Made by a program: the position numbers and the translations under genes
Notes under the pieces: generated by a model
The model's input: the letters and a program-made list of their open reading frames with translations, nothing else
Databases searched by the model: none
What the model was told of the DNA's origin: nothing
Assembly: GCA_000739535.1 (NCBI GenBank)
Contig: DF820463.1
Span: forward strand, 604,956-668,955
From: Candidatus Vecturithrix granuli
GTDB taxonomy: Bacteria > Moduliflexota > Moduliflexia > Moduliflexales > Moduliflexaceae
Length of the DNA stretch: 64,000 nucleotides
Reading direction: 5' to 3'
Part shown: in pieces, positions 29,130-40,563 of the stretch
How positions within the stretch are numbered: the first letter of the stretch is position 1
How the letters are laid out: every line of letters begins with the position of its first letter

Positions 29130-31316
29130 ATGATGCTGAAAAATACGAAAGAAGTCAACTTAGGCGAGATTCTTCGAGATGCTGGTCTCATTTCTCCTGT
29201 ACAACTAACAAAAGCGTTACAGGAGCAAAAAAATACCGGATCGAGCCTGGTTGAGATCCTGACTAAAAAACGCTATATCTCTATGCAGAGTCTTGTTGAT
29301 TTGCTCACATACGAAATTCCTCTGCCATTCGGAACAAGAGATGCAGACAAAGCATTACGAAACTTTTTGCTGGATACGGGACTGACCACAGAGGACGAAC
29401 TTCAGAAATTGATTGATGAATCCGAGTTGGGAAAGACCCTAGTTCAGGAAGGGTATATCAAAAAATTTCAATTGGAACTGGCGCGCCAGGAACAACAACA
29501 CACCGGACACCCGCTGTGGCGAACATTGGTGAATCTGCGATTTATCTCTCCCGAGCAGATGAATGCGATCTTAAAACATCACATGTATCGTTCCCAATAT
29601 ACGGATTTGGATGAACTTGTTGGCGAGATTCTGGTCAATACGAAACAAATTACGAAAAAACAGCTCCAACAGGCCAAACAGAAAAAAAAGAGTACTCACG
29701 AAGCGTTAGGCGAAATTTTAACCAGGGAAGGGATTATTTCAGCCACACGGGTGGCAAAAGCTCTGGGAGATTATCTGAATATTCCGTTTGTGGATCTGCA
29801 CAAAACACAGATTGATCGTAAAGTGGCGATGATGCTGCCGGAGAGTTTTATTCGGGAACATAAAGTGCTGCCTATCAAACAAGAACAAGGTTTAGATGGT
29901 TTGCCGCCGCGTCTGTTTCTCTCTGTGATCGATCCGCTGGATATTTCAACCCGTGACAATATTCGCATGATGACCGGATGTGAGGTTGTTCCTCTGCTCG
30001 CCACAGAAAAAGCTCTAACAGAAATGACCGATCAAATCTTTCTCTTTGATCGCGCGGATGAGGAGTTTGCCATTGATTCCGTTGAAAAAAAAGAGCTTGT
30101 CCCTGGACCAGGCAAAGCCGTTCCGTTTGCTGCTCTCAGCGTCAAAAACATGGGCGAAGACCTTTCAACTGTCAAACTGGTCACGTCGCTCATCGAAGGG
30201 GCGATCAATGCGAATGCAACTGATATTCACCTTGAACCATCGGCCAATGAGGAACTGCGCATACGCTACCGGGTTGATGGGATGCTGCACGACGTGATGA
30301 ACATTTCGGAGCAGGCGCATTCAACGGTGATTTCTCGGATTAAAGTGCTGGCAGATATGGATATTACGGAACGACGCCAGGCTCAGGACGGACATATTAC
30401 GATGAAAATCGCCGGGACGGAATATTACATGCGGATTGGGACCTTGCCGACTAAACTCGGGGAGCGTCTGGTGATTCGATTATTGGATGAACGCCGCGTC
30501 ATCACCGGATTACGCCAATTAGGCTTAGAATTTCAAGATTTGAAGCAAGTGGAAGAATTTATCTCAACCCCCTATGGCATGATTCTGGTAACCGGACCTG
30601 TGGGAAGCGGCAAAACAACCACACTCTATTCCGCCCTCAATGAAATTAATATTTTGACCAAAAATATTATCACGATTGAAGATCCGGTAGAATACCAGTT
30701 ACCGGGAATCAGTCAGGTCGAAGTGGATGCCAAGATCGGATTAACTTTTGCTGCCGGCTTGAGAGCGATTTTGCGGCAGGACCCGAATACTCTGATGGTT
30801 GGCGAAATTCGCGATCCGGAAACCGCATCAGTCGCCATTCGAGCAGCTCTCACCGGACAACAACTGTTTAGCACACTGCACACTCAGGACGCCGCAGGCG
30901 CGATCACCACCCTGTCCTATTTAGGCGTCCAACCTTTTTGGATTGCCAGTGCATTAATTGGGGTGATCGCTCAACGTCTTGTGCGGAAGATTTGTCCATA
31001 TTGTAAAGAACCGTATACACCGGATAGTCGTTTATTGAACTTACTCAATCTTGAGAAAGAGGCTGAGCATACCCAATTTTACCATGGTAAAGGCTGTGAT
31101 CGTTGTTTTCATTCCGGGTATTCAGGACGAACCGGAATCTTTGAAGTGATGAAGGTTAATGGATATGTGCGAGAATTGATTGTGAATCAGGCGCCTGAGG
31201 CGAAGTTGAAAGAAGAGGCGATTGCAAGGGGAATGAATACATTAAAAGTTAGTGGGATCAAAAAAATTATCCGTGGAGAGACCACCCTTGAAGAAACATT
31301 ACGAGTTATTCTGTAA
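29130..31316 (+). CDS. pilB: Type IV pilus/type II secretion assembly ATPase
   Basis: Hexameric motor that drives pilus extension or secretion at the inner membrane, 728 aa. The N-terminal 240 residues hold three consecutive MshEN-like units (LGEILRDAGLISPVQLTKAL, LGKTLVQEGYIKKFQLELA and VGEILVNTKQITKKQLQQAK) before the standard LGEILTREGIIS unit; such units bind c-di-GMP in characterised relatives. The motor domain has Walker A GPVGSGKTTTLYS (Lys495), VGEIRDPETA, the STLHT His box, and a zinc tetracysteine motif (Cys622, 625, 656, 659). All key residues are intact. First gene of a plus-strand set with pilC, a degenerate paralogue and pilT. No strong ribosome site before the ATG. Confidence 0.95.
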   Translation: MMLKNTKEVNLGEILRDAGLISPVQLTKALQEQKNTGSSLVEILTKKRYISMQSLVDLLTYEIPLPFGTRDADKALRNFLLDTGLTTEDELQKLIDESELGKTLVQEGYIKKFQLELARQEQQHTGHPLWRTLVNLRFISPEQMNAILKHHMYRSQYTDLDELVGEILVNTKQITKKQLQQAKQKKKSTHEALGEILTREGIISATRVAKALGDYLNIPFVDLHKTQIDRKVAMMLPESFIREHKVLPIKQEQGLDGLPPRLFLSVIDPLDISTRDNIRMMTGCEVVPLLATEKALTEMTDQIFLFDRADEEFAIDSVEKKELVPGPGKAVPFAALSVKNMGEDLSTVKLVTSLIEGAINANATDIHLEPSANEELRIRYRVDGMLHDVMNISEQAHSTVISRIKVLADMDITERRQAQDGHITMKIAGTEYYMRIGTLPTKLGERLVIRLLDERRVITGLRQLGLEFQDLKQVEEFISTPYGMILVTGPVGSGKTTTLYSALNEINILTKNIITIEDPVEYQLPGISQVEVDAKIGLTFAAGLRAILRQDPNTLMVGEIRDPETASVAIRAALTGQQLFSTLHTQDAAGAITTLSYLGVQPFWIASALIGVIAQRLVRKICPYCKEPYTPDSRLLNLLNLEKEAEHTQFYHGKGCDRCFHSGYSGRTGIFEVMKVNGYVRELIVNQAPEAKLKEEAIARGMNTLKVSGIKKIIRGETTLEETLRVIL

Positions 31317-31397: not shown

Positions 31398-32531
31398 ATG
31401 AACGGAGAACATGAAGTCAAAGAAACACCACAAGATCTTGTCACGGAAACCGAACAGGTTTCTGAAGATGTTCGAGGAAGATTGAAGTTAAAAACGATCG
31501 GAGTGGATGCGGTGTCGCTTTTTTGTCGCCAGTTATCAACGCTAGTAGATGTTGGCATCCCACTGCTGAAGTGCTTGCAGATCTTACATCAGCGCACCAG
31601 TCATCCGAAATTACAGGCGATTATTCATTCATTGTCAAACGAAATTGAACAAGGCTCGGCGTTTTCAGTTGCCCTGGAAAAATTTCCCCACGTCTTTTCA
31701 CCGTTTTTCATTAATATGACGAAAGTCGCGGAAAAAGGCGGAAATTTAGATGAATCGCTCAAAGTGGTGGCCGATGTGATGGAGAAGGAAGAACTAATGA
31801 AACAAAAAGTGCGGGATGCTTTGATTTACCCATTGACGACGCTCCTGGTCGGGTTGTTTGTCGTGGGAGTGTTATTAATTGTGGTCATCCCGATGTTTGG
31901 AGATTTATATTCGCAACAGAATTTTGACCTCCCCTGGCCAACGCGAGTGCTCCTTGCCCTGGGAGATCCTAAAATTTTTTGGATCTGGTTGCTTCTGATT
32001 GTAGGAGCCGTGCTGTTTATTGTCGCTTATGCTAAAAGTCCGGAAAGCAAAGCGTTTTTTGATCGGTATAAATTGAAACTGCCAGTGTTTGGTCCGCTGT
32101 TTACGAAATTGTACGTTTCCAGATTTTCCCGTAATTTTGGGACGTTGATTCGAGGAGGAGTACCAATGTTACAGTCGCTCGATGTCGTCAAGGAAACGTC
32201 AGAAAATATGGTGGTTGAAGAAGCCGTTGAGAAAATAACTCAACATGTCGAACGAGGCGGTCGGTTAGAACAGCCCTTGCGCGAAGCAGATATTTTCCCT
32301 GATGTTGTCGTTGATATGATTGCGATTGGCGAAGAGGCCGGGAAACTTGATCTGATGTTGTTTAAAGTCGCGGATTTGTATGATGGCGAAATTGACCGAT
32401 CCATCAATACGCTGGCATCTTCTCTACAGCCTATTTTAATCGTTATCATGGGATTTTTAACGGCCTTTGTTGCAACGGCCATGTTCTGGCCGTATTTCAG
32501 AATGGCGAAAATTTTAGGGGCAGGATTTTAA
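31398..32531 (+). CDS. pilC: Inner-membrane platform protein of the pilus machine
   Basis: GspF/PilC platform on which the assembly ATPase acts, 377 aa. It has two T2SSF repeats (about 35-155 and 235-360), each with the helical pattern FCRQLSTLVDVGIPLLKCLQ / FSRNFGTLIRGGVPMLQSLD, and membrane segments near 145-170, 190-215 and 345-365. AAGGAGG precedes the ATG. The gene is 81 bases after pilB and 109 bases before the degenerate PilB paralogue. Family firm; whether the system is a pilus or a secretion pseudopilus depends on pilins not present here, though pilT nearby favours a retractable pilus. Confidence 0.94.
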   Translation: MNGEHEVKETPQDLVTETEQVSEDVRGRLKLKTIGVDAVSLFCRQLSTLVDVGIPLLKCLQILHQRTSHPKLQAIIHSLSNEIEQGSAFSVALEKFPHVFSPFFINMTKVAEKGGNLDESLKVVADVMEKEELMKQKVRDALIYPLTTLLVGLFVVGVLLIVVIPMFGDLYSQQNFDLPWPTRVLLALGDPKIFWIWLLLIVGAVLFIVAYAKSPESKAFFDRYKLKLPVFGPLFTKLYVSRFSRNFGTLIRGGVPMLQSLDVVKETSENMVVEEAVEKITQHVERGGRLEQPLREADIFPDVVVDMIAIGEEAGKLDLMLFKVADLYDGEIDRSINTLASSLQPILIVIMGFLTAFVATAMFWPYFRMAKILGAGF

Positions 32532-32640: not shown

Positions 32641-34548
32641 ATGAGACAAGCAAAATCAATTGGTTCTATTCTGGTTGATGTCGAATTAGTGACGCAGGAT
32701 GATATTGAAAAGGCTCTGGAACTGCAAAAGCAGACTGGAAAACGCCTGGGAGAAGTCCTGGTAATGATGGGCGCGGTATCGGATGATGATATCCGCTGGG
32801 CTCTTGCGGAACAATTAAACCTCCCGTATGTCAATATCCGTAAAGATCAGATTGATCCAGACGTGGCGCAATTGCTCCCTGAAAAAATTGCCCGGCGTTA
32901 CCATGTCATTCCGATTTTGAAGATTGAGAACGAATTGACCGTCGTGGTTGATGATCCATTAAATACGACGATTATTAAAGATATTGAGAAAATGACCAAA
33001 TCAGAAGTGAAAATCTCGTTAGGACGGATCTCAGATATCTTACTCGCAATTGACGAGATCTACGGAACGGTCGAAGAACAAGAAATTCCTGAACAGCAGC
33101 CTCCGCCGAAATTTGTATCTTCCTGGTTTCATGAGGAGGATATGCAAAAAATTCTCAATGATCCCTCAGGTCATGTGTTGATGGAACGCATTGTGACCAC
33201 CGCCCTGGATCATGGCATTTCTCGGATCTATTTTCAACCCGGGAGCGATCTCTGCCACGTGAGTTATCGGGTTAATGGGGTGTTACAAGAACAAATTCAA
33301 CTCAGCCTGGAATGGTATTCTATTTTACTCTTTCGTTTAAAGATCAGCGCTGACTTTGAAATCCCGGAAACGTCATTACCTCAATATCGGGAATTCTTCT
33401 ATAAAGAACATCTCTCGACAAGTTCCGCTTATCCGGCTGGAGAACCCGTAGTCTTTGCGCTTTCTATTCTTCCGACAACCACCGGTGAATCTGCCGTCCT
33501 CAGTGTGGTGAAGAAATCAATCGAACACCTTTGGCTGCAAGAAGACGAAGAAAAAGGAAGCTTGCTTCAAAAACAGGAACTTCTGGTGGTGCGTCAACTT
33601 CAGACAAAACTTCAACATTGCAGTTATGGCGCAGTTTTTTTGGGAGGGAGGGGCTATCTCGAAAAAATGACAACACTCTATGGATTGCTCAGAACCTTTG
33701 ATCCGATCCAGAAAAAAATTGTCATCTTCGAAGCGCATTCTGAATATCTGGCTGATAAATGCTATCAGGTTCGATATGGGAGGGAAGATTTGATTAAACT
33801 TCATCACGCGCTTCATCTTGCGCAAACAGCAACTTCTGGCCCCGAACAACAGGAACAGCAAGAGGCCCAGCCTGAGGATTCCGCACAACAGAAATTTTCA
33901 GGGTTGCGTCAAGATTACCCGATCCCTGGCTTCCAAAGAGTTACTCAGATTCTTCAACCAGAACAATGTGTGCTTTCAAATTGGTTATCTGGGCTAAATG
34001 CCCATGATCCGGATGTGTTATTGATCGATCATATTGCCAGTGAAGTTGTGTTGGCTCAAAGTTTGGATTTTGCCGCAAATGGCGTGATGTTTGCGTCTCT
34101 TGAGCTTCCAACAGCGTTTCTTATGCTGGCATATATGTTAGAATGCCAGACAAAACCGTCGGTGATCGCATCACGCGTTCTGGCATTGATGGCGCAATAC
34201 TCGCTCCGCGTTCTCTGTCAGGAATGTAAGCAAAAAGATGACAGCGAGTTAGGAAAACAGATGATGGATCGGCTTCAGCCGACAGGCGAAAACACGGTTC
34301 CGGAAATCTACAAAGCTGTCGGCTGTCCTGCTTGCAACAGGAGTGGATACGTTGATCAGATAACGCTGTTCGAGATATTACCGATGGAGTCCTGGCTCAA
34401 AGAGCTATTGTTGGCCGGAGCTCCGCTTGCTGAGATCCGGCAAACAGCTTGCAACACAGGCTTTCATTCACTTGAAAAAAAGGGGAGCGCGCTCTTATTT
34501 TCAGGACAGACTTCCCTGGAAGAAGTCTTTTCATTGCTATCATACTAA
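32641..34548 (+). CDS. Degenerate PilB-like protein (pseudo-ATPase)
   Basis: A 635-residue paralogue of PilB. The N-terminal part is well kept, with MshEN-like IGSILVDVELVTQDDIEKAL and LGEVLVMMGAVSDDDIRWAL followed by the T2SSE N-domain. The motor part is eroded: the Walker A position reads LGGRGYLEKMTTLYGLL (334-350), with Lys342 kept but Glu341 where Gly is needed and Met343 instead of Thr/Ser. VGEIRDPETA has become LIDHIASEVV and the STLHT box reads ASLEL. The C-terminal zinc region (CQECK, CPACNRSGY) is kept. The frame is intact over 1.9 kb, so the protein is probably made and selected. It may join PilB in a mixed ring or act as a c-di-GMP-responsive adaptor. ATG 32641 lacks a clear ribosome site. 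Confidence 0.85.
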   Translation: MRQAKSIGSILVDVELVTQDDIEKALELQKQTGKRLGEVLVMMGAVSDDDIRWALAEQLNLPYVNIRKDQIDPDVAQLLPEKIARRYHVIPILKIENELTVVVDDPLNTTIIKDIEKMTKSEVKISLGRISDILLAIDEIYGTVEEQEIPEQQPPPKFVSSWFHEEDMQKILNDPSGHVLMERIVTTALDHGISRIYFQPGSDLCHVSYRVNGVLQEQIQLSLEWYSILLFRLKISADFEIPETSLPQYREFFYKEHLSTSSAYPAGEPVVFALSILPTTTGESAVLSVVKKSIEHLWLQEDEEKGSLLQKQELLVVRQLQTKLQHCSYGAVFLGGRGYLEKMTTLYGLLRTFDPIQKKIVIFEAHSEYLADKCYQVRYGREDLIKLHHALHLAQTATSGPEQQEQQEAQPEDSAQQKFSGLRQDYPIPGFQRVTQILQPEQCVLSNWLSGLNAHDPDVLLIDHIASEVVLAQSLDFAANGVMFASLELPTAFLMLAYMLECQTKPSVIASRVLALMAQYSLRVLCQECKQKDDSELGKQMMDRLQPTGENTVPEIYKAVGCPACNRSGYVDQITLFEILPMESWLKELLLAGAPLAEIRQTACNTGFHSLEKKGSALLFSGQTSLEEVFSLLSY

Positions 34549-34572: not shown

Positions 34573-35637
34573 ATGGCAGAAATTGATGCGCTGCTTGAAA
34601 AGGCGGTTAAAATAGGAGCATCGGATGTGCACTTAACAGTTGGGGCTCCCCCGATTTACCGATTAAATGGGGAACTCCAGATCTCAGAAGACGCTGATTT
34701 GCTTACTGATCAGGATACAAGGCGTTTGTTGCGAGAGCTGATGACAGAACAGCAAAGGCTGAAATTTGATCAGTTGAATGATATTGATTTTGCCTATCAA
34801 GTTGAGGGAATCGGACGTTTTCGAGGAAATGTGTTTTTACAAACTCGCGGAATGGGAGCCGTGTTTCGGATTATTCCACAGCAGATCACCCCCTTGGAAG
34901 AACTGCGACTGCCACGGGCCGTCCATGAATTTACGCGATTAAGCCGAGGATTGGTGCTTGTGACAGGGCCAACAGGCAATGGAAAGTCAACAACTCTGGC
35001 CTCCATGATTGATTATATCAATCGTTATCGCAAAGCGCACATCATCACGATCGAAGATCCACTTGAATTTATCCATAGCAACAACAAAAGCTTAATTAAC
35101 CAACGAGAAATCGGGACGCACAGCTCGTCGTTTGCCAGCGCCTTGCGGTCGGCTTTCCGAGAGGATCCGGATGTCATTCTGATTGGGGAGATGCGCGATT
35201 TGGAAACCATTGCTCTGGCAATTACGGCTGCGGAAACTGGTCATCTCGTGTTTGGTACCCTTCATACCAGCAGCGCGGCGAAAACGATTGACCGAATTAT
35301 CGATGTGTTTCCCACAACCCAACAAGCGCAAGTGCGAACTCAATTATCAGAGTCATTGAGCGGTGTGATTGCTCAACAATTGCTCAAACGCATGGATGGA
35401 AAAGGCCGTGTCGCGGCGGTTGAAATTTTAGTCGGAGTGCCAGCCCTGGGGCATTTGATTCGAGATGGGAAGACGTATCAAATTCCTTCAATTATCCAAA
35501 CCGGACGACGAGAAGGGATGCAGACCATGGATCAGGCGATTGTCGATTTATTAAAACAGGGCGCGATTTCCCCGGAAGAAGCCCATGATAAATGCGTCGA
35601 TCGGGAAACATTTCAACGCTATCTGGGAAAGCTCTGA
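34573..35637 (+). CDS. pilT: Pilus retraction ATPase
   Basis: Motor that depolymerises the pilus, powering twitching, 354 aa. Walker A is GPTGNGKSTTLASM (Lys138), followed by EDPLEFIH, the Walker B block DVILIGEMRDLETI and the HTSSAAKTIDRI His box. The C-terminal AIRA-type helix region seen in PilT is replaced by MDQAIVDLLKQGAISPEEA, the usual end of this family. No N-terminal MshEN unit, as expected for PilT. It starts 24 bases after the degenerate PilB paralogue, so these two are probably one transcript. Confidence 0.95.
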   Translation: MAEIDALLEKAVKIGASDVHLTVGAPPIYRLNGELQISEDADLLTDQDTRRLLRELMTEQQRLKFDQLNDIDFAYQVEGIGRFRGNVFLQTRGMGAVFRIIPQQITPLEELRLPRAVHEFTRLSRGLVLVTGPTGNGKSTTLASMIDYINRYRKAHIITIEDPLEFIHSNNKSLINQREIGTHSSSFASALRSAFREDPDVILIGEMRDLETIALAITAAETGHLVFGTLHTSSAAKTIDRIIDVFPTTQQAQVRTQLSESLSGVIAQQLLKRMDGKGRVAAVEILVGVPALGHLIRDGKTYQIPSIIQTGRREGMQTMDQAIVDLLKQGAISPEEAHDKCVDRETFQRYLGKL

Positions 35638-35794
35638 TGCGGGTAGTGCCGACATTCCATGTTAGTGGTTGAATGGTAAGTGACCTCTGCTTGTTGAGTG
35701 AAGTCGAAATGAGCCATTTTATGTTTCTTGCGACTCTGTTCAGGAAACAGTATCATTTATCATTATGACCACTACCGAAGAAGGATATGAGGTT

Positions 35795-37483
35795 ATGAAC
35801 GATCTGGTGAAAAAATCTATGCTGTTCATTATAGGAATCTGTTGTGTGCTGAGCGGCTGTGTTGAGTGGCGTCATCCTGATGCTCTCTATGGAGAAGCCC
35901 CGCGCCCCCCGCTTGAAAAAGGTCGTGAACATGAACGCAAGCACCGGTATGCAGAAGCGGAACAAGAATATTTACAAATTACCGATGAAGCCGTCAAAGA
36001 AATGACGCTCAATCAACTGGCCTCTGCCTGGGATAGTGTGAACGCCAACATTATTCGCGCTCAAGAACTGGTGAAGCAACAGCCGACGCTCGCCAGAGCC
36101 AGGTTACAATTAGCCCGGGAATACTACAATAAAGGGCTGTTGTGCGCTCGCTATTGGAAAGAGTCTATGGGAGATTATCCTCGCGATTTTGTGCTGGAAG
36201 AACAAGAATATTTTTTTACCGCATCGCTTGAACAGGCCAAAAAAGCCCTCCAATTTCAACCCGTTTTTCCTGAAGCTCGACTGTTGATGTCAGAGATTTA
36301 TCTGGTGAATCGCTTGCACAATGAGGGCCTGAAAGAACTGAAACAACTTATTCGCAAACACCCGGACTACGCCAAAGGCTATTATGCCATCGGGAACGCC
36401 TATCTTGAGATGAAGCAGTACGATAAGGTGGAGCGGTATTATATCCGCGCGATTAAACTGGACCCCGATTTTCTTGACGCGTATTACATGCTGGGGAAAT
36501 TTTACTTTGAACGGCAATGGTACGATTATGCAGTCTATACATACTTAGAGCTTTTACGTAAAAATCCCAAAGATTGGCCATCCTTTGATATGTTGATTGA
36601 CGCCTGTCATCAACTTGGCAACTATTATGTGGAACAGGAACAATACAACCAGGCCATCGGGATTTTTCAGGCCATCCTGGAAGTCAAGTCTTCGTATCCG
36701 GTACACCAAAGCCTGCTGCAAGCGCGTAAGAAAAGGGACGAAGCCGCATTAATGGCCGCAGAACAGGAAAGCCAGGGTCAGGCGCCTGTTCCTTCCGGAG
36801 AAATCCATGCGCCAGCAGCAGAAGTTGGGTCAGCCCCCTCCCTCCCTGAACACATCTTGCCGGTCGCATTGCAACCGGCACAAGTTCCTTCGCCTGAGGC
36901 AGTTCCTCCAACGCCGCCCGAAGAAAGCTTTCCGGGAGCAGAGGAAACATCGGCAATCCCTGTTGCCCAGGTTCAACTTCGTAATACGCCCGCCACGCTT
37001 TCGAATCAAGATATTATCCATATAATCCAACAGCGTGGGTTCAATCATCCCAACAATTTAACGAATTGGGGCTTATCAGGCAGTGTTCAAGGCACCTTTC
37101 AACACGCCTACCAACCCCAAACACGCAATAATGATTCCGTGGTGGTCGATCAAAGTACGGGACTGGTATGGCAGCAAGCGGGATCTACGAATCAAATGAC
37201 CTGGAACGAGGCCAAAGCCTATATCCAACAATTGAACCAGAATGAATTCGCAGGCTTTGCAGACTGGCGGCTGCCGACAGTTGAAGAACTCGCTTCATTA
37301 TTGGAGTTTCAGAAGAAAAACGGCAATTATTATATTGATCCTGCTTTCGATGTGACTCAGGGATTTTGTTGGAGTGTGGACATGGCAGCAGGCGCCAACG
37401 CAGCCTGGGCTGTGGCTTTTCACAGCGGTCATGTGTATTACGATCCTCTTGATCGCACGAATTATGTCCGCGCCGTACGCTGA
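35795..37483 (+). CDS. TPR lipoprotein with C-terminal DUF1566 (Lcl_C) domain
   Basis: A 562-residue lipoprotein. It has a lipoprotein signal with lipobox LSGC, a TPR-rich helical region (about 40-320, e.g. GYYAIGNAYLEMKQYDKVER, DAYYMLGKFYFERQWYDYAV), a Pro/Ala/Glu-rich linker (about 325-405), and a C-terminal DUF1566 domain (VVDQSTGLVWQQ, TWNEAKAYIQQLN, FADWRLPTVEEL, FCWSVD). DUF1566 is a C-type-lectin-like fold in surface adhesins. ATG 35795 is preferred for the signal peptide; 35765 would add ten residues. It follows pilT, so it may be a pilus-associated or surface-display lipoprotein, which is inference from position. Confidence 0.88.
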   Translation: MNDLVKKSMLFIIGICCVLSGCVEWRHPDALYGEAPRPPLEKGREHERKHRYAEAEQEYLQITDEAVKEMTLNQLASAWDSVNANIIRAQELVKQQPTLARARLQLAREYYNKGLLCARYWKESMGDYPRDFVLEEQEYFFTASLEQAKKALQFQPVFPEARLLMSEIYLVNRLHNEGLKELKQLIRKHPDYAKGYYAIGNAYLEMKQYDKVERYYIRAIKLDPDFLDAYYMLGKFYFERQWYDYAVYTYLELLRKNPKDWPSFDMLIDACHQLGNYYVEQEQYNQAIGIFQAILEVKSSYPVHQSLLQARKKRDEAALMAAEQESQGQAPVPSGEIHAPAAEVGSAPSLPEHILPVALQPAQVPSPEAVPPTPPEESFPGAEETSAIPVAQVQLRNTPATLSNQDIIHIIQQRGFNHPNNLTNWGLSGSVQGTFQHAYQPQTRNNDSVVVDQSTGLVWQQAGSTNQMTWNEAKAYIQQLNQNEFAGFADWRLPTVEELASLLEFQKKNGNYYIDPAFDVTQGFCWSVDMAAGANAAWAVAFHSGHVYYDPLDRTNYVRAVR

Positions 37484-39595: not shown

Positions 39596-39711
39596 AGACG
39601 AGCTTGAAAAATGATGACAACCAAAAAACCTGCTTATATTCTACTTGACAAATTTCGGAGGATGGGCAACAAATAATTAATAAAAGACGCTGCAAGGAGG
39701 TGAGTATTTTT

Positions 39712-40563
39712 ATGGCAGTGACGGCAATGAATACGGCTGAGCTCCATGATTATTTAGTCGAAACACTTCCGATAATCCTGGAAGAAAACAAGGATATACA
39801 GCGCGCGATTTTCCGCATTTCGAGGCGCAGATTTGCGGACACAGACGAGACGAATCTCCGTTTCGATCGGATGTTCGAAGAACTCCAACAGGAGCGAGAA
39901 CTTTCAGAAAAACGTTGGGAAGAAAACCATCAACGCTGGCAAAAAAATCAGGAAGAGTTAGCAGCGATGCGGCGCGAATCTGATGAACGCTGGAAAGAAA
40001 GTCAGCAACGGTGGGAAGAAAACCAGCAAGAGTTGACAGCGATGCAGCGCGAATCCAATGAACGCTGGGAAAAAAATCAGCAAGAGTTGGCAGCGATGCG
40101 GCGCGAATCAGATGAACGTTTTGAGCGTCTGATGCAAGAAATTAAAAATGTGCGTATAAAGCACGAAAGCTCGATCGGGGCGTTGGGAGCACGCTGGGGG
40201 ATTGCGGCAGAATCCTCGTTTCGAGATGGCTTGAAAGACTTGTTAGAACAGGATTTCGGTGTCCAGGTACTCAACATTACTGAATATGATGACGCTGGTG
40301 AGGTCTTCGGACAACCGGATCAAATAGAACTGGATCTGATCATCAAGAACGGGACGCTCATCATTTGCGAAATCAAATCATCCATCAGTCGTTCGGAGAT
40401 GTATGCCTTTTACCGCAAAGTACAATTCTACGAAAAACGTCACCAACGTAAAGCCACGAAACTGATGGTCATTTCTCCGATGGTGGACCAACGCGCCAAA
40501 GCCGTGGCCGACAAACTTGGCATCATTGTCCATGCGTATGCCGACGAGGTGGAATTGTGCTAA
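39712..40563 (+). CDS. Coiled-coil protein with C-terminal PD-(D/E)XK nuclease-like domain (DUF3782-like)
   Basis: A 283-residue soluble protein. Residues about 45-150 are a charged coiled coil made of repeated ERWEENQQELAAMRRESD-like units. Residues about 155-283 have the PD-(D/E)XK arrangement: FGQPDQIELDLII, then ICEIKSS (E-x-K), then KVQFYEKR. Such proteins are common as multi-copy families in cyanobacteria and candidate phyla; substrate and role are unknown. AAGGAGG (39694-39700) lies 11 bases before ATG 39712; the GTG at 39700 overlaps that site. It lies in the accessory block between fcl and wzt and next to a Uma2 gene, another PD-(D/E)XK family, so it is probably mobile cargo rather than polysaccharide machinery. 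Confidence 0.8.
   Translation: MAVTAMNTAELHDYLVETLPIILEENKDIQRAIFRISRRRFADTDETNLRFDRMFEELQQERELSEKRWEENHQRWQKNQEELAAMRRESDERWKESQQRWEENQQELTAMQRESNERWEKNQQELAAMRRESDERFERLMQEIKNVRIKHESSIGALGARWGIAAESSFRDGLKDLLEQDFGVQVLNITEYDDAGEVFGQPDQIELDLIIKNGTLIICEIKSSISRSEMYAFYRKVQFYEKRHQRKATKLMVISPMVDQRAKAVADKLGIIVHAYADEVELC
39946..40122 (+). repeat. In-frame 48-bp repeats in the coiled-coil region
   Basis: Three copies of a 48-bp unit begin at 39946, 40021 and 40075 (spacing 75 and 54, multiples of three). Each contains AGCGATGCGGCGCGAATC or a close variant. They encode the repeated coiled-coil heptads of the surrounding gene. Confidence 0.75.

Follow-up and report, generated by a model that had tools for sequence, protein, structure and literature searches.

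The pilus motor operon carried by the window (the whole stretch of 64,000 nucleotides that was analysed) includes a degenerate PilB paralogue, here named pse, which probably encodes a maintained regulator of retraction rather than a decaying gene, because relatives with the same losses adjoin pilT in distantly related bacteria. Our preferred reading, to which we assign a probability of roughly 0.5, is that the pse product is a PilB-derived pseudo-ATPase dedicated to PilT that would provide MshEN input for retraction in trans. How cells time pilus retraction is an open question; extension motors with MshEN domains can sense c-di-GMP, and PilT lacks this domain. A conserved, apparently enzymatically dead MshEN partner encoded beside pilT would constitute a direct and testable route of control, and genes labelled 'MshE/PilB family ATPase' may need new names.

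The pse gene and its operon

The pse frame (32641-34548, + strand) begins with ATG and is open over 635 codons according to the ORF check of the window; its product combines a pair of MshEN units with an N2D and a CTD, and carries four zinc cysteines. The gene is flanked by pilC, ending at 32531, and pilT, starting at 34573. The operon and the regions of pse discussed below are as follows.

29130..31316, + strand: pilB, extension ATPase, 728 aa; P-loop GPVGSGKT, GE, and His box intact; extra MshEN-type motifs N-terminally
31398..32531, + strand: pilC, platform protein (T2SSF)
32641..34548, + strand: pse, Trp-type pseudo-PilB, 635 aa
32641..33078, + strand: pse MshEN domain, aa 1-146; most conserved part, 82% identity with the copy in genome G001
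32797..32799, + strand: pse Trp53 codon, MshEN motif II position 19
33646..33678, + strand: pse eroded P-loop GRGYLEKMTTL, aa 336-346; Lys342 retained
33820..33909, + strand: pse Gln/Glu-rich insertion, about aa 394-423, between the Asp box and the Walker B strand; poorly conserved
34006..34041, + strand: pse Walker B strand, aa 456-467; GE replaced by DH
34216..34341, + strand: pse zinc tetracysteine region CQEC...CPAC; retained
34573..35637, + strand: pilT, retraction ATPase, motifs intact; starts 24 bases past the pse stop codon

Pse is matched by the Pfam T2SSE model with E=3e-29 (102 bits, over a cut-off of 24.9; E=7e-122 for the window PilB), by Pfam MshEN with E=1e-19, and by a PilF chain in the PDB with E=8e-65; solved PilF and PilB chains match it in two stretches, aa 3-294 and about 425-631. 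It scores 187.9 bits against the NCBIfam PilB model TIGR02538, under the cut-off of 675.65, which is a weak test because the PilB of the same operon, at 554.5 bits, also falls below it. Domain order, MshEN-type motifs, and the zinc tetracysteine are common to pse and the PilB/MshE extension ATPases (TIGR02538; MshEN plus T2SSE), whereas pse is linked to pilT and lacks the P-loop, the catalytic Glu, the His box, and the N2D arginines. A structure prediction covering the window proteins and L045 reached a pLDDT of 44 and was discarded.

The P-loop of the window PilB, GPVGSGKTTTLY, corresponds in pse to GRGYLEKMTTLY, with GRGYLEKM in place of GPVGSGKT, so that the last Gly is replaced by Glu341 and the Thr/Ser by Met343, while Lys342 is retained; residual nucleotide binding by the window protein is possible for this last reason. 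The Asp box changes from EDPVE to EAHSE and the His box from STLHT to ASLEL. The Walker B strand is present (DPDVLLIDHIAS, as compared with DPNTLMVGEIRD in the window PilB), but its catalytic Glu is replaced by His. A preliminary description of this DNA had proposed a degenerate PilB paralogue with an intact 1.9-kb frame between pilC and pilT, one that kept c-di-GMP-type N-terminal units and a zinc region and had lost the Walker A Gly and Thr/Ser and the His box, all of which agrees with our results, although it did not mention the retained Lys342; its statement that the Walker B region was lost holds for the catalytic residue and not for the strand.

Measured against the 24-residue RLG...Q consensus of MshEN domains (PMC5013675, PMC11731258), motif I of pse, SIGSILVDVELVTQDDIEKALELQ, matches at 7/11 key positions, its first Arg being replaced by Ser, and motif II, RLGEVLVMMGAVSDDDIRWALAEQ, at 9/11; both MshEN Gln residues are present. 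With the NCBIfam model NF053729, a c-di-GMP motif domain whose cut-off is 38, pse scores 60.7, and this cut-off was passed by all nine Trp-type proteins (see below) that were tested. Binding of c-di-GMP by the Trp-type family is nevertheless uncertain, since the first Arg of motif I is absent in most members and both Gln are absent in those of genomes G002 and G003.

Near residues 10 and 99, the window PilB carries additional c-di-GMP-type motifs, and both Gln are gone from its core-proximal MshEN. Directly 3' of pilT, positions 35765-37483 encode a TPR protein that has an Lcl_C domain at its C-terminus and is 572 aa long in the window and much shorter in G001 (349 aa; L046:3612-4661). Positions 39700-40563 (L046:190-1266 in G001) encode a coiled protein that contains ERWEENQQELAAMRRES-like repeats; it measures 287 aa in the window and 358 aa in G001, apparently as a result of repeat expansion.

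A family marked by a Trp residue and linked to pilT

The comparison covered four genomes of the phylum to which the window genome (8.4 Mb) belongs. The sole other genome of the same family among them, G001, has the order pilB-pilC-pse-pilT, and its pse is 55-56% identical to that of the window and has the same motif losses, which was the orthologue check proposed in the preliminary description; because the losses are fixed in a gene in the same order at this level of identity, they reflect more than chance. In the sister family, both genomes possess a pilB-pilC-pilT operon without pse, and a different pse-like gene immediately before another pilT pair (L099, L100).

More distant relatives bring the Trp-type pseudo-PilB family to 15 sequences analysed, from five phylum-level groups, none of which (0/15) contains a P-loop. 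Their alignment revealed an invariant Trp at residue 53 of the window protein; this residue, at position 19 of MshEN motif II, is found in 15/15 members and in 0/98 distinct intact PilBs, and every member examined after it was noticed (from G305, G241, G415, G417, and G403) shows the Trp together with the absence of a P-loop. Window pse matches the relatives in G123 and G126, both of the phylum of G038, with 195 and 160 bits, as against 67 and 43 bits for the window PilB. A relative is encoded in all seven genomes compared from the phylum of G038, and at least four members were recognised among 59 genomes sampled from that of G305; the latter count is a lower bound, as three candidates were scored per genome in the wide survey. 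A survey of 116 genomes with PF00437 was confined to the strongest PilBs, a scan of genome contigs returned one ordinary PilB, and a search of viral contigs yielded nothing useful.

Directly downstream of the gene lies a pilT in 13 of the 14 members with a readable flank (the window included), compared to 23/91 intact PilBs (p=2e-6); the latter fraction is a rough baseline because the comparison PilBs were drawn from similarity searches, and since related members are not independent such p-values serve only as guides. In G038, G127, and G128 the two genes abut or overlap, and outside the family of the window genome pse accompanies pilT without pilB or pilC. Such adjacency does not prove that the predicted proteins are in contact. 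The member in G403 (L210:9048-10751) is the sole case seen without an adjoining pilT. In G125 (contig C1; L125, L126), frameshifts split both pse and pilT, and because both genes are broken an assembly error is probable.

In a tree built from full-length sequences, a single branch with a support of 98 sets the first 12 Trp-type rows off to one side, a grouping to be read cautiously because long branches could produce it. The Trp-type rows are not long-branched in a tree of the MshEN domain built without the Trp column, which places all 15 members together with one intact PilB, L194 (97/94), and groups the window, G001, G052, G305, G415, G417, and the phylum of G038 at 98/86. This fits a single origin of the family, either by itself or supplemented by one or two changes.

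Constraint on the probable pseudo-ATPase and its possible role

Between the window and G001, pse differs with pS 0.78 and pN 0.31; as synonymous sites are saturated, dN/dS could not be computed for this pair, and the member shared by G002 and G003 was used instead. Its dN/dS is 0.159 over 550 gap-free codons in this one unsaturated pair, with 58/152 changes nonsynonymous as against a neutral expectation of 77% (p=4e-24); the adjoining pilT has a dN/dS of 0.03. Selection on the family is purifying, looser than on an enzyme and far from neutral. Conservation is also distributed differently from that in PilB: the MshEN domain of pse is 82% identical between the window and G001 and the P-loop region 38%, whereas PilB is most conserved in its catalytic domain (79%, compared to 58-72% for MshEN).

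A functionless, decaying gene could account for the fast evolution of the core and for the lack of pse at this locus in the sister family. However, reading frames are open in nearly all members, the losses are shared, and the Trp and the MshEN domain are fixed across phylum-level distances, which together with a dN/dS of 0.16 makes decay very improbable. Neither neutral change nor frameshifts, the signs of decay named in the preliminary description, were found in relatives, save for the probable assembly error in G125; its idea of a selected pseudo-ATPase gains support from the gene order and losses shared with G001, the open frames, and the dN/dS.

To separate what is kept from what is lost, we considered positions with a conservation of 90% or more among intact PilBs (window PilB numbering). 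The fold glycines G444, G483, and G716, as well as R381, are retained in 14/15 members, and the zinc cysteines in 11-12/15. By comparison, the P-loop Gly, the Walker B Arg, and the box His are each retained in 0/15, the catalytic Glu in two, and the N2D arginines R416, R435, and R450, which are invariant in intact PilBs, in one or two. The P-loop Lys site is occupied by Lys in 5/15 members and by Arg in 7/15, and the Walker B Gly column by Asp or Glu in 12/15. These last substitutions could mean that pse still binds nucleotide, or is a weakly active ATPase acting through altered residues such as Lys342 and the acidic residue of Walker B, but with the Gly, the Glu, the His box, and the N2D arginines lost to this extent, and with the P-loop region among the least conserved parts of the protein, we regard residual activity as quite improbable.

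The same residues bear on whether pse is instead a subunit or cap in PilB rings, lowering or tuning extension, as the mixed rings of the preliminary description would imply. Pse belongs to the same fold family, has pilB and pilC as operon partners both in the window and in G001, and largely retains the fold residues and the zinc region. Some N2D arginines of this ATPase class contact nucleotide across the ring interface, and because they are lost, pse could not complete the active site of a neighbour in the usual way. Moreover, other lineages pair pse with pilT in the absence of pilB and pilC, and the sister family has a pilB-pilC-pilT operon without it. A mixed ring is therefore less favoured than dedication to PilT, and we consider it unlikely.

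If pse is dedicated to PilT, it may bind c-di-GMP or another MshEN ligand, and its ATPase-like body could dock on the PilT ring or the PilC platform and set when PilT may engage; PilT would thereby gain a second-messenger input in trans. A dead, PilB-like body bearing MshEN could bring such control because PilT has no MshEN domain, and the strong conservation of MshEN fits the signal adaptor suggested in the preliminary description. In Vibrio cholerae, c-di-GMP acting via MshE shifts both extension and retraction (PMC7096442). Extended to the family as a whole, the proposal would be that dead PilB paralogues act in at least five phylum-level groups as a c-di-GMP-type receptor for PilT, a docked pseudo-subunit gating retraction, which we put forward only tentatively. 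Alternatively, pse may be a platform or polar-targeting adaptor that binds PilC or a signalling protein and recruits PilT with catalysis unaffected. The conserved MshEN, the pseudoenzyme body, and the linkage with pilT would all suit this role, which sequence cannot separate from dedication to PilT; we judge it to be a doubtful alternative.

PilU is a PilT-type ATPase that is catalytically competent and has no MshEN domain, and in these respects it is unlike pse, which it resembles in the position of its gene beside pilT. Accessory retraction ATPases of the PilU/PilT type, encoded adjacent to pilT, are thought to modulate retraction (PMC6762196). FimX and PilZ of Xanthomonas and Pseudomonas supply c-di-GMP or regulatory input to the pilus motor in trans (PMC8389850, PMC5595344), but they have EAL/GGDEF and PilZ folds and target PilB, whereas pse is an apparently dead motor paralogue encoded near pilT. 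No catalytically dead or degenerate PilB was described in the literature searched, outside of which lie most subscription papers.

From its published description, the Geobacter 'mshE' gene GSU0435 can be likened to pse as a PilB-like gene directly before a pilT, and it may be a candidate member of the Trp-type family. Its product, called an ATPase, is 26% identical to PilB, and the gene lies immediately 5' of pilT3, an order conserved in other Geobacter species; both proteins are abundant on Fe(III) oxide, and the two genes are unlikely to be co-transcribed (PMC5065972, PMC8557921).

Other degenerate PilB paralogues in the phylum

Seven other degenerate PilB paralogues occur in the phylum of the window genome. 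They lack the Trp, have an adjacent pilT in 0/8 unique entries with a readable flank, and have a separate origin in the tree; we set them apart from the Trp-type family on these grounds.

Two other degenerate PilB paralogues, mutually adjacent and with neither pilT nor Trp, form a conserved pair found in both families of the phylum (L101:7827-11383 in G000, contig C12; L116:7042-10640; L117:7252-10850), and dN/dS for this type of pair is about 0.09-0.10 between G002 and G003. A further row, L102:7060-12390 (G000, contig C15), encodes a PilB, a degenerate PilB whose P-loop is altered (EPSSPENGKMAT), and a 337-aa pse/PilB-like protein; the degenerate PilB is the sister of the intact PilB in the same row.
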